Source: Simplicispira psychrophila DSM 11588 (lineage in GTDB: Bacteria; Pseudomonadota; Gammaproteobacteria; Burkholderiales; Burkholderiaceae_C). From it: 64,000 nt of DNA. Location of the stretch: contig NZ_JHYS01000002.1 in the NCBI RefSeq assembly GCF_000688255.1, positions 248,001-312,000 on the forward strand, given 5' to 3'. The notes below the pieces were generated by a model that worked only from the letters and a program-made list of their open reading frames with translations, was not told the DNA's origin and made no database searches. A program made the position numbers and the translations under genes. Shown one piece after another: positions 61,713-64,000 of this stretch. Within the stretch, counting starts at the first letter, position 1, and each line of letters begins with the position of its first letter.

Positions 61713-62126
61713 TCAGTTGCCGCGGTAGGTCGAGAAACCGTAGGGGCTCAGCAGCAGCGGGATGTGGTAGTGCGGCACGGTGCCGTCCACCGCAAAGATC
61801 ACCGGCACTTCAGGGAAGAACGTGGCCGTTTTGTGCTCGGCAAACCACTCACCGGTTTTGAAGGTGACGCGGTAGTTGCCCTTTTCCAGCGCCTTACCTT
61901 CGGGGAACAGTGCCGGGATGCGGCCCTGTTCATTGGTGGTGCCGGTGTTCAGCTGCGTCCAGTCCTTGCCGTTCTGCTTTTCCAGCAGCACTTTGACGCC
62001 GGGCGAAGGCAGGCCGTCTTGCAGGTTCAGCACGTGCACGCTCAGCGGGTTGCCGGCAGCAAAAGCGATGGCCGAAGCGCCGCACAAAGCAATACCGGCG
62101 CACAGGGATTTGAAAGTCATGCTCAT
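61713..62126 (-). CDS. Exported 5-hydroxyisourate hydrolase-like (transthyretin-related) protein
   Basis: A 137-residue protein with a signal peptide (MSMTFKSLCAGIALCGASAI, cleaved near residue 23, FAAGN). The mature domain is the transthyretin-related 5-hydroxyisourate hydrolase fold, with LSVHVLNLQDGLPSPGVKV, an arginine in NEQGRIPALFPEG, a histidine in GTVPHYHIPLLLSPYGFSTY and the end tetrapeptide YRGN (YRGS in most enzymes). The three catalytic residues (His, Arg, His) are present. E. coli HiuH is also exported and lies beside the hprRS genes, like this gene beside a CusRS/HprRS-type system. It is downstream of the GlcG-like gene on the same strand, so probably one operon. Confidence 0.88.
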   Translation of the reverse strand: MSMTFKSLCAGIALCGASAIAFAAGNPLSVHVLNLQDGLPSPGVKVLLEKQNGKDWTQLNTGTTNEQGRIPALFPEGKALEKGNYRVTFKTGEWFAEHKTATFFPEVPVIFAVDGTVPHYHIPLLLSPYGFSTYRGN

Positions 62127-62167: not shown

Positions 62168-62713
62168 TCAAGGGGCTGGCGCGGGTAATGCCGCCGGCAA
62201 AATTTTGGCAATGGCTTGCAGCGCGCAGCTTTCGTCTTGCACCGCGCCGCCCGCGCCGCCGACGCCCATCGCGCCAATCACCTCGGTGCCGATGCGCAGC
62301 GGCACACCGCCGCCAATCAGCAACAGTGCATCGACGGTGTTGAGGTTCTGCGAATCCGGGTTGGCGCGCGCATTGGTCGCCAGTTGGCGCGTCAGGCTCT
62401 TGGTGGACAGCGCGGTGAAAGCTTTGCGCACAGCCGCATCGGTGTTGTGCGGGCCGACGTTGTCGTCGCGCTGCACCGCAACCAGGTTGCCGCCCCGGTC
62501 CACCACCACGGCGACGGCCGAGCGGCCTTCGGCGTGGCAGGCGGCCAGTGTGGCGTTGATCAGATCATTGGCCAACGCCAGCGACACATTGGGCTGCTGC
62601 AGCACTTGGGCGGGCAACACTGCGGCGGGCGATGCGGCGAAAGCGCTGGAGGCAGCCGTGGCGTACAAAGCAAAAGCCGTCAGGGAAGAGCGGGCAGATA
62701 GGCGAAATGACAT
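62168..62713 (-). CDS. Exported GlcG/HbpS-family protein (DUF336)
   Basis: A 181-residue protein of the GlcG/HbpS family. A signal peptide MSFRLSARSSLTAFALYATA with cleavage near AFAASP places it in the periplasm. The domain reads SLALANDLINATLAACHAEG, VAVVVDRGGNLVAVQRDDNV, KAFTALSTKSLTRQLA, and ends with GGVPLRIGTEVIGAMGVGGA. In HbpS the relatives bind haem or iron and sense redox stress. Here it precedes the transthyretin-like gene and is divergent from a two-component system, with a strong palindromic box between. Haem binding is inference. Confidence 0.85.
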   Translation of the reverse strand: MSFRLSARSSLTAFALYATAASSAFAASPAAVLPAQVLQQPNVSLALANDLINATLAACHAEGRSAVAVVVDRGGNLVAVQRDDNVGPHNTDAAVRKAFTALSTKSLTRQLATNARANPDSQNLNTVDALLLIGGGVPLRIGTEVIGAMGVGGAGGAVQDESCALQAIAKILPAALPAPAP

Positions 62714-62782
62714 GGACGAATTCCTTGGGGCGGTACGAATGACAGAACCGCAATGGTGCGCCGCCGCCCCCGTCAAAACCAT

Positions 62783-62816
62783 GGCGTGTGGATGACAAAG
62801 TTGTCATCCACACGCC
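62783..62816. promoter_or_regulatory. CusR/HprR-type operator: perfect 16-bp inverted repeat
   Basis: GGCGTGTGGATGACAA, two bases (AG), then the exact complement TTGTCATCCACACGCC. The centre reads TGACAA-AG-TTGTCA, the core of the box bound by CusR and HprR in E. coli. It lies between the GlcG/HIU-hydrolase-like operon and the divergent regulator gene, about 44 bases before the regulator start and 70 before the operon start. Its symmetry makes a binding site very likely; which protein binds is inferred from the neighbour. Confidence 0.8.
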
Positions 62817-62859
62817 AGCGGTTTGCGCCTACGCTTGCTGGCTCTGGAGGCACACGTAT

Positions 62860-63531
62860 ATGCGGATATTGGTAGTGGAAGACGAGGTCAAGGCAGCGGA
62901 CTATCTGCGCAAAGGCCTGGGTGAATCAGGCTATGTGGTCGAGGTAGCGCACAACGGCATCGACGGCCAGTTTTTGGCACAAGAGAGCGAGTTCGACCTG
63001 ATCATTTTGGATGTGATGCTGCCCGGTATTGACGGCTGGCAGCTGCTGCAAATCATCCGGCGCAAGAGCCAAGTGCCGGTGCTGTTTCTGACCGCGCGCG
63101 ATGCGGTGGAAGACCGCGTTAAAGGGCTGGAACTGGGCGCTGACGACTATTTGGTCAAGCCGTTTTCGTACGCCGAACTGCTGGCGCGGGTGCGCACGCT
63201 GCTGCGCCGGGGCCCGCCGCGCGAGGTCGAGCAGTTCCAAGTGGCGGATTTGCAGCTGGATGTGCTGCGTCGCCGGGTGGTGCGCGGCACCGAGCGCATC
63301 ACGCTGACCAACAAAGAATTTGCCTTGCTGCAGCTGCTGATGGAGCGCAGCGGCGAGGTGTTGTCGCGCACGCAGATTGCCTCGCAGGTGTGGCAGATGA
63401 ACTTTGACAGCGACACTAATGTGGTGGATGTGGCGATTCGCCGGCTGCGCGCCAAGGTGGACGACCCGTTTTCACCGAAGCTGATCCATACCGTGCGCGG
63501 CATGGGTTACACGCTGGAGGCGCCGGAATGA
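62860..63531 (+). CDS. OmpR-family response regulator, CusR/HprR type
   Basis: A 223-residue heavy-metal or peroxide response regulator. The receiver begins [20 protein letters not shown], with the phosphorylation aspartate in [19 protein letters not shown] and lysine in [18 protein letters not shown]. The DNA-binding wing reads [20 protein letters not shown] and [20 protein letters not shown], then [11 protein letters not shown]. The whole is closest by eye to CusR, CopR, CzcR and HprR. It overlaps the kinase gene by four bases (ATGA). The palindromic box in the upstream gap suggests autoregulation. Confidence 0.94.
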
Positions 63532-64000
63532 AGAAGCGGCTGTGGCTGCGCGCGCTCAGCCTGCGCCTAGCGCTGATGTTTGCGCTGGTCAGTGTGTTGT
63601 TGCTCGGCGCGTTGGGCTTTTATCTGTACCAGTCGCTGGAGCGCGAGATTGCCTGGCGCGATGACCAGGCGCTGGTCGGCCGTGTCGAGCGGATGCGCAC
63701 GCTGATTGGCGACAGCGCCAGCATCGAGGCGCTGCGCCAGCGCCCGCAGCTCTACGCCAACATGCTGGGCAACCGCGACAACCTGCTGTGGGTGCTGAAC
63801 GGCGCCGGCCAGCCGCTGATCGAGATCAACCCGGTACAGATGGCGGTACCGGCGCTGCCACCCGGCAGCGGCGTACAGCTGCAGGACCACGCGGGCGCTG
63901 AGCCGGCGCGGCTGGCTTGGCAACACGTCCTGCACGAGGGCCAGCCGTTGACGTTGGTCGCTGGCAAGCTGCTGGCTGAGCGTCGGCAAATGCTGGCGGA
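63528..64000 (+). CDS. Heavy-metal-type sensor histidine kinase (partial at right edge)
   Basis: The first 157 residues of a membrane histidine kinase. The start [20 protein letters not shown] overlaps the regulator stop as ATGA. A membrane helix ([20 protein letters not shown]) is followed by a periplasmic region including [19 protein letters not shown] and [16 protein letters not shown], typical of the CusS, CopS and HprS sensor domain. The HAMP, HisKA and ATPase parts lie beyond the window. It is the partner of the adjacent regulator. Whether the signal is copper, silver or hydrogen peroxide cannot be told. Confidence 0.92.

Follow-up and report, generated by a model that had tools for sequence, protein, structure and literature searches.

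A conserved glcG-hiuH and regulator-kinase unit in Simplicispira psychrophila, an apparent variant of the HprRS-hiuH system of Escherichia coli

Genes and operator at the locus

The window, that is, the whole stretch of 64,000 nucleotides of Simplicispira psychrophila DSM 11588 that was analysed, ends in four genes arranged as two divergent pairs. On the minus strand lie the gene of HiuH (or UraH), an exported 5-hydroxyisourate hydrolase of the transthyretin family of 137 aa (61713..62126; PF00576, 3.7e-37; TIGR02962, 135.2 bits with a cut-off of 87.45), and, upstream of it, that of an exported GlcG/HbpS-like protein of 181 aa (62168..62713; PF03928, 8.5e-30, 103.9 bits with a cut-off of 25). 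The plus strand encodes an OmpR-family response regulator of the CusR/HprR/CopR subfamily, 223 aa long (62860..63531; TIGR01387), and the 5' part of a sensor histidine kinase with HAMP, HisKA and HATPase_c domains (63528..64000); the complete kinase has 467 aa and ends beyond the window, at L009:6931 (L009 is the organism's own locus, extended). Both exported proteins have N-termini that, read by eye rather than with a predictor, resemble signal peptides. The Pfam and TIGR profiles are in agreement with the first-pass annotation of this DNA, which had proposed an exported GlcG/HbpS-like and HiuH pair divergent from a regulator-kinase pair of the CusR/HprR family. Directly 3' of the kinase there is a xanthine/uracil-type permease (PF00860; L009:6984-8342), which does not recur beside the unit in other loci.

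The two pairs are separated by an intergenic region with a 34-bp palindrome at 62783..62816, GGCGTGTGGATGACAA-AG-TTGTCATCCACACGCC, in which the arms match in 16/16 positions around a 2-bp centre, precisely the perfect 16-bp inverted repeat that had been described; the arms can be stretched to 25 nt at 88% identity (62774-62825). The 14-bp core TGACAANNTTGTCA (TGACAA-N2-TTGTCA) occurs with 0 mismatches in only one place in the 3.6-Mb genome. The putative core operator, ATGACAAAGTTGTCAT, occupies 62792..62807 and corresponds to the consensus ATKACANNNNTGTMAT that was reached by alignment of the unit loci. On the glcG side it is accompanied by a third half-site, GCCAT, a direct repeat 11 bp farther out and in phase with the box (62781..62785, minus strand), and by the presumed -10 element of the glcG-hiuH promoter, CACCAT (62753..62758, minus strand), while the presumed -10 element of the regulator-kinase promoter, TACGCT, is found at 62830..62835 on the plus strand. 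The GlcG-like reading frame is listed from 62782, and an ATG at 62713 is preceded by AAGGA; since the longer frame opens inside the third operator half-site, the ATG at 62713 is very likely the start.

Conservation of the unit and of its promoter geometry

A HiuH scan of the genome_contigs collection, which covers 84,980 species, returned 92 relatives, and the best 80 of these 92 were kept and combined with the organism's own locus and two family members (L040 and L041) in a set of 83 loci. As this sample is rich in Pseudomonas, a non-redundant set of 45 rows was counted in addition. All four genes are found together in 74 of the 83 loci, belonging to Pseudomonas, Stutzerimonas, Comamonadaceae, Oxalobacteraceae, Pandoraea, Acinetobacter, Aeromonas, Iodobacter and Deefgea, and the full set is missing in the other nine, namely L044, L092 (cut at its contig end), L102, L105, L108, L109, L112, L120 and L121. 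Among these, the regulator pair of L120, like that of E. coli, has no glcG next to it, and in L044, L112 and L121 no such pair adjoins glcG-hiuH. No recurrent fifth gene was found in flanks of up to about 6 kb, the next commonest cluster being present in 7/83 loci. Membership of glcG in the unit, already proposed from the sequence, is sustained by the 74 complete loci and by a case of swapped gene order on a Pantoea plasmid that is described below. The unit is patchy among relatives of the organism: with the organism itself counted, GlcG at 78% identity or more is present in 3/26 genomes of the genus, HiuH at 56% identity or more in 3/250 genomes of the family, and HiuH at E 1e-30 or better in 3/321 genomes of the class, in all three of which a GlcG match lies directly upstream. 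Other members of the genus contain a second GlcG-like family, 46-48% identical (G254:C2:3662138, G257:C1:2621193, G251:C28:74264 and others).

The box ATKACANNNNTGTMAT was found with at most 1 mismatch within 210 bp in 73/74 of the regulator/glcG intergenic regions, and with 0 mismatches in 11/74; the exception, L082, shows 4 mismatches within 210 bp, its box lying farther from the estimated regulator start, and once the search was widened all 74 regions carried the box. In control windows of 210 bp, drawn from the rest of the same loci after exclusion of the unit and of 300 bp to either side, the box occurred with at most 1 mismatch in 3/3230 and with 0 mismatches in none. Its distance to the regulator start is constant within 1 bp in 51 of the 74 loci. 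The first-pass annotation had read the palindrome as an operator of the CusR/HprR type and had made this reading depend on a search for the box in orthologous loci; its presence in all 74 argues for such an operator. Across the genome, 12 sites with at most 1 mismatch were counted, against 4 for the reversed pattern, and these include the unit's own site and that of a second regulator, on contig C8. Evidence to the contrary comes from L044, L102, L105, L109 and L121, which encode an exported HiuH but have no box with 0 or 1 mismatch near it; glcG is present in two of them, L044 and L121.

What is conserved across the loci, however, is only the central 16 bp (62792-62807) together with the third half-site on one side, and not the full 16-bp arms that had been taken for the operator. 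In fact, the 16-mer is flanked by 10 contiguous pairs in the Simplicispira locus versus at most 5 in the other 73, so that the outer arms are a peculiarity of this locus and probably do not belong to the site in general. Through them, most of the third half-site is repeated in mirror image on the regulator side (GCCAG), where it might strengthen autoregulation. The 25-nt arms (88% identity) look as if one flank had recently been copied, inverted, onto the other, and the near relatives L045 and L046 do not have them; template switching that carried the glcG-side flank over to the regulator side could have produced the extra arms, a suggestion for which these two near relatives are too small a sample. 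Two other readings of the palindrome, as a terminator or as part of a mobile element, were rejected, since its core is an operator conserved in place between the two promoters.

The spacing of the promoter elements is as conserved a trait as the box. Toward glcG, positions G22 and A25 are invariant in 74/74 loci, and the motif G[CT][AC]AT begins at offset 22 in 40 of the 45 non-redundant sequences; at other offsets from 16 to 44 it was not found in four or more of these 45, nor was it on the regulator side. A -10-like xAxxxT stands at index 49-54 on the glcG side in 70/74 loci (41/45 non-redundant), and on the regulator side the A and T of xAxxxT stand at index 38-43 in 65/74 (36/45), i.e., 11 bp closer to the box. 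The same layout is present on both sides in E. coli, where hiuH has GTAAG at 22 and TATCCT at 49 and hprR has TATGAT at 38; E. coli cusC, whose box half-sites are identical to those of the unit, has the glcG-side layout, with the third half-site and the index of the -10 element, but on the cusR side the layout differs from that of the regulator side. The box and the -10 element at 49-54 are kept also where no regulator pair is adjacent, before hiuH in Rahnella and, with 1 mismatch, before glcG in Serratia, the glcG reading frame of which has only 112 aa, and box and -10 are likewise kept in the locus of Massilia norwichensis, which is without glcG. In this last locus (L120, 5139-6339) the regulator and hiuH flank the same box and glcG was not found, an E. 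coli-like layout without adjoining msrPQ. The promoter geometry on both sides, equal to that of E. coli hprR-hiuH, supports the proposal that the box would control both directions, and this comparison strongly supports the regulatory part of the first-pass annotation. Judged in this way from sequence conservation, the four genes and their operator appear to be a real, conserved and well-delimited regulatory unit.

Sensor, outputs and the probable signal

The reading that we favour, and consider probable, is that of a self-contained HprSR-type module for envelope stress, activated by oxidants and driving both the regulator-kinase genes and glcG-hiuH. The inner-membrane kinase, with its short periplasmic loop, would be activated by the oxidation of periplasmic methionines by reactive chlorine species or peroxide and would transfer phosphate to the OmpR-family regulator; the latter would bind one shared operator, made up of the inverted repeat and the in-phase third half-site, and would activate both its own genes and glcG-hiuH, from a promoter, in this second direction, that is presumably of class II, with a -10 element exactly 11 bp further out. 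HiuH would hydrolyse 5-hydroxyisourate, or some imide like it, that arises outside the cytoplasm, the GlcG-like protein may bind or quench a small ligand or a metal through a Cys/His site, and both exported products would deal with small molecules derived from oxidants in the periplasm.

The regulator itself is placed between the known families. It scores 355.7 bits with TIGR01387 ('heavy metal response'; cut-off 279.2), remains below the cut-offs of both the CusR equivalog NF007346 (311.8 bits, cut-off 420) and the HprR equivalog NF008567 (306.8 bits, cut-off 353), and is 55.0% identical to HprR versus 59.6% to CusR. In a tree of 28 regulators, which has several weak forks and long branches, including that of HprR, and leaves 8/25 inner forks open, the 21 unit members do not form one clade: fifteen of them, including that of the window, form one branch (support 92/90), four, from Acinetobacter, Pandoraea and two Comamonas, form a separate one (86/59), and those of L040 and L041 group with HprR and CusR (84/88). 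The identities and the split tree count against the favoured reading; the unit thus seems to work like HprSR without being filed as HprR.

For the kinase, HprS (9EPN) is the second-best PDB sequence match, and its Met79 and Met155 occupy the positions of HprS Met72 and Met153, which we take to be the sensing methionines (the numbers 72 and 153 are reportedly those of El Hajj 2022). The column of Met72 holds Met in 75/75 aligned kinases and that of Met153 in 68/75, one of the 75 being incomplete there; at HprS Cys165, presumably the membrane cysteine, the window kinase has Leu, and none of the 75 loci has Cys, a point against the HprSR-type reading. On the other hand, at the CusS histidines, which we assume to be positions 42 and 176, His is found in 0/75 and 1/75 kinases, respectively, with Glu and Arg in the window, and the columns of the His/Met-rich loop of CusS are gaps in all 75. 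As far as the passages available from these sources go, HOCl is sensed by two methionines in the periplasmic loop of HprS, for whose signalling a membrane cysteine is of importance (PMC10151825, a review), oxidant sensing by periplasmic methionines of HprS is described also in PMC10296692, and CinS has two loop histidines that are conserved in CusS as well (PMC3140484). Because the HprS methionine positions are kept and CusS-type histidines are missing, oxidants are likelier than copper as the signal, and the label 'metal-responsive' that had been attached to the unit is disfavoured.

The same genome contains a second CusR/CopR-like regulator-kinase pair (G000:C8:85650-86373; L149:7651-8383), whose regulator is 66-67% identical and which has the box ATTACAAATTTGTTAT upstream and a divergent operon with an RND pump (by Pfam) and, by eye, outer-membrane-factor and membrane-fusion genes; on the RND-pump side of this box, CACCAT is present at index 49-54. 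The kinase of this C8 pair has His in both CusS columns. In E. coli, according to the parts of PMC9302797 consulted, two signals induce hiuH-msrPQ, HOCl acting through HprSR and copper through CusSR, and cross-talk of the unit with the C8 regulator is possible for this reason.

In HiuH, the family's His31, Arg69, His119, His121 and Tyr134-Arg135-Gly136, presumably the catalytic residues, are conserved in at least 95% of the 83 loci, and the C-terminus is YRGN in the window and in 76/83 loci and YRGS in 6/83. A second HiuH was not found in the genome with the window protein as query (E 1e-12), nor, in this genome rated 100% complete, were an OHCU decarboxylase and a MoCoBD_1 protein, for which the controls were positive in 4/14 and 5/14 genomes; in the search for allantoicase the control was silent. 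With a single HiuH and neither of these two proteins found, a complete endogenous urate pathway appears unlikely. The GlcG-like protein has solved relatives in HbpS (3FPV/4BMW), 4NKP and 2A2L, and it has C59 and H89 in 77/77, C163 in 76/77 and H60 in 71/77 sequences. The iron motif E78XXE81 of HbpS is not kept (D92/V95 in the window; Leu in 44/77 and Gln in 67/77), and the haem site Thr113 is replaced by Leu130, in 75/77; His18, the axial ligand of the haem-binding PduOC domain, for which the aligned range is 49-171 on 15-141, falls near Ile52 by an offset counted by hand, where there is no His, and is probably absent as well. As the HbpS ligand positions are not kept, the haem- or iron-linked role once proposed for the GlcG-like protein is unsupported, and a disulfide or a metal/ligand site may be the alternative.

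These data bear unequally on the other explanations of the unit. A copper/silver-responsive unit of the CusRS/CopRS type, in which the kinase would bind Cu+ and HiuH and GlcG would be copper-tolerance proteins, agrees with the 'heavy metal response' family of the regulator and its slightly greater nearness to CusR, with the cusC half-sites in the box, and with the passages of PMC9302797 in which copper raises the hiuH mRNA of E. coli about 190-fold and CusSR is required for the induction of msrP by copper. Nevertheless, we regard it as improbable, given the near absence of His from the two CusS columns, the complete absence of the His/Met-rich loop from the 75 kinases, the lack of any gene beyond the four that recurs in more than 7/83 loci, and the separate CusR-like pair beside an RND pump that the genome already has. 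More doubtful still is a three-component sensor like HbpS-SenS-SenR, in which the GlcG-like protein would bind the periplasmic loop of the kinase and modulate it: PF03928 does include HbpS, which works with a two-component pair in redox stress (PMC4991794), and glcG stands beside the kinase pair in 74/83 loci, but the HbpS iron (E78XXE81) and haem (T113) residues are not conserved, the regulator-kinase pair occurs without glcG beside it and glcG-hiuH without such a pair beside them, and glcG sits in the output operon. The family of HiuH and the PF00860 permease directly after the kinase could also recall a purine-use unit, in which HiuH would serve urate breakdown and GlcG and the permease would belong to it; this we hold to be very unlikely, as the permease is not recurrent beside the unit and the OHCU decarboxylase and MoCoBD_1 protein were not found in a genome rated 100% complete, with positive controls.

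To return to the oxidant-activated HprSR-type module, we propose tentatively, as an idea that is more likely to prove wrong than right, that HiuH and the Cys/His-containing GlcG are a periplasmic oxidant-defence pair that would detoxify oxidised purine or related electrophiles rather than act in a urate pathway, with GlcG possibly tuning the HprS-like kinase. The unit bears on the question why E. coli induces a periplasmic 5-hydroxyisourate hydrolase in response to HOCl and copper: it points to a partner protein, and the question can be tested directly in this genome, where the other urate genes looked for were not found.

Comparison with known systems

The nearest known system is HprSR-hiuH-msrPQ of E. 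coli, in which, as had been stated beforehand, hiuH adjoins hprRS and glcG is absent from the locus. Both have a regulator-kinase pair divergent from an exported hiuH around an ATTACA-N4-TGTAAT-type box, both -10 positions and the periplasmic sensor methionines; the box of the E. coli intergenic region is given as CATTACAAAATTGTAATG in the consulted part of PMC9302797, and a recognition sequence common to HprR and CusR is described in that of PMC8249747. Unlike the E. coli system, the unit has no msrPQ and carries glcG between the box and hiuH, its regulator falls under the HprR equivalog cut-off and its kinase lacks Cys165. The genome does contain msrP and a gene with an MsrQ-like ferric-reductase domain elsewhere, on contig C1; since no box with 0 or 1 mismatch was found on this contig, there is no clear sign that the organism shares the repair arm of the regulon of E. 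coli, and the unit suggests that msrPQ may be a replaceable output of the HprR-type regulon.

The operator has a close counterpart in the AgrR box of Cupriavidus metallidurans (PMC7380067, in the passages compared), where the operator and the direct repeat were footprinted and mutated: it is ATKACANNNNTGTMAT, letter for letter, joined by an in-phase direct half-site, and AgrR shows type II activation and autoregulation, as the unit would be predicted to do. The AgrR targets in these passages, in contrast, are silver/copper-resistance genes, with no glcG-hiuH. CusRS-cusCFBA of E. coli has a core box of the unit's type and, on the cusC side, its third half-site and -10 index, but differs in the -10 index on the cusR side and in the copper-ligand positions of the kinase, which are absent in the unit. 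Streptomyces HbpS-SenS-SenR also joins an exported PF03928 protein to a two-component pair in redox stress, but the haem and iron ligands of HbpS are absent from the GlcG-like protein of the unit.

GlcG matches were found in 69 plasmid records, of which 37 are from Pantoea and 28 from Escherichia. One of the 69, a plasmid of Pantoea agglomerans, bears a regulator-kinase pair divergent from uraH and a 'heme-binding protein' gene around the same box with 1 mismatch. Its regulator passes the HprR equivalog cut-off (397.4 bits, cut-off 353), TATAAC is present at 49-54, and its GlcG-like protein has, by eye, the same conserved Cys/His residues (C59, H60, H89, C163). It differs from the unit in being plasmid-borne and in the order hiuH-glcG, which makes an accidental co-inheritance of the two genes less likely. 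The glutathione peroxidase gene that follows hiuH-glcG on this plasmid (L163:4665-5159), and that the unit does not have, hints at a role in oxidative stress.

No title or abstract on a glcG-hiuH-HprRS unit came up in the literature searched, whose coverage takes in few subscription papers. Taken together, these comparisons indicate that the unit is, in all appearance, not a system of a new kind but a widespread variant of HprRS-hiuH as known from E. coli.
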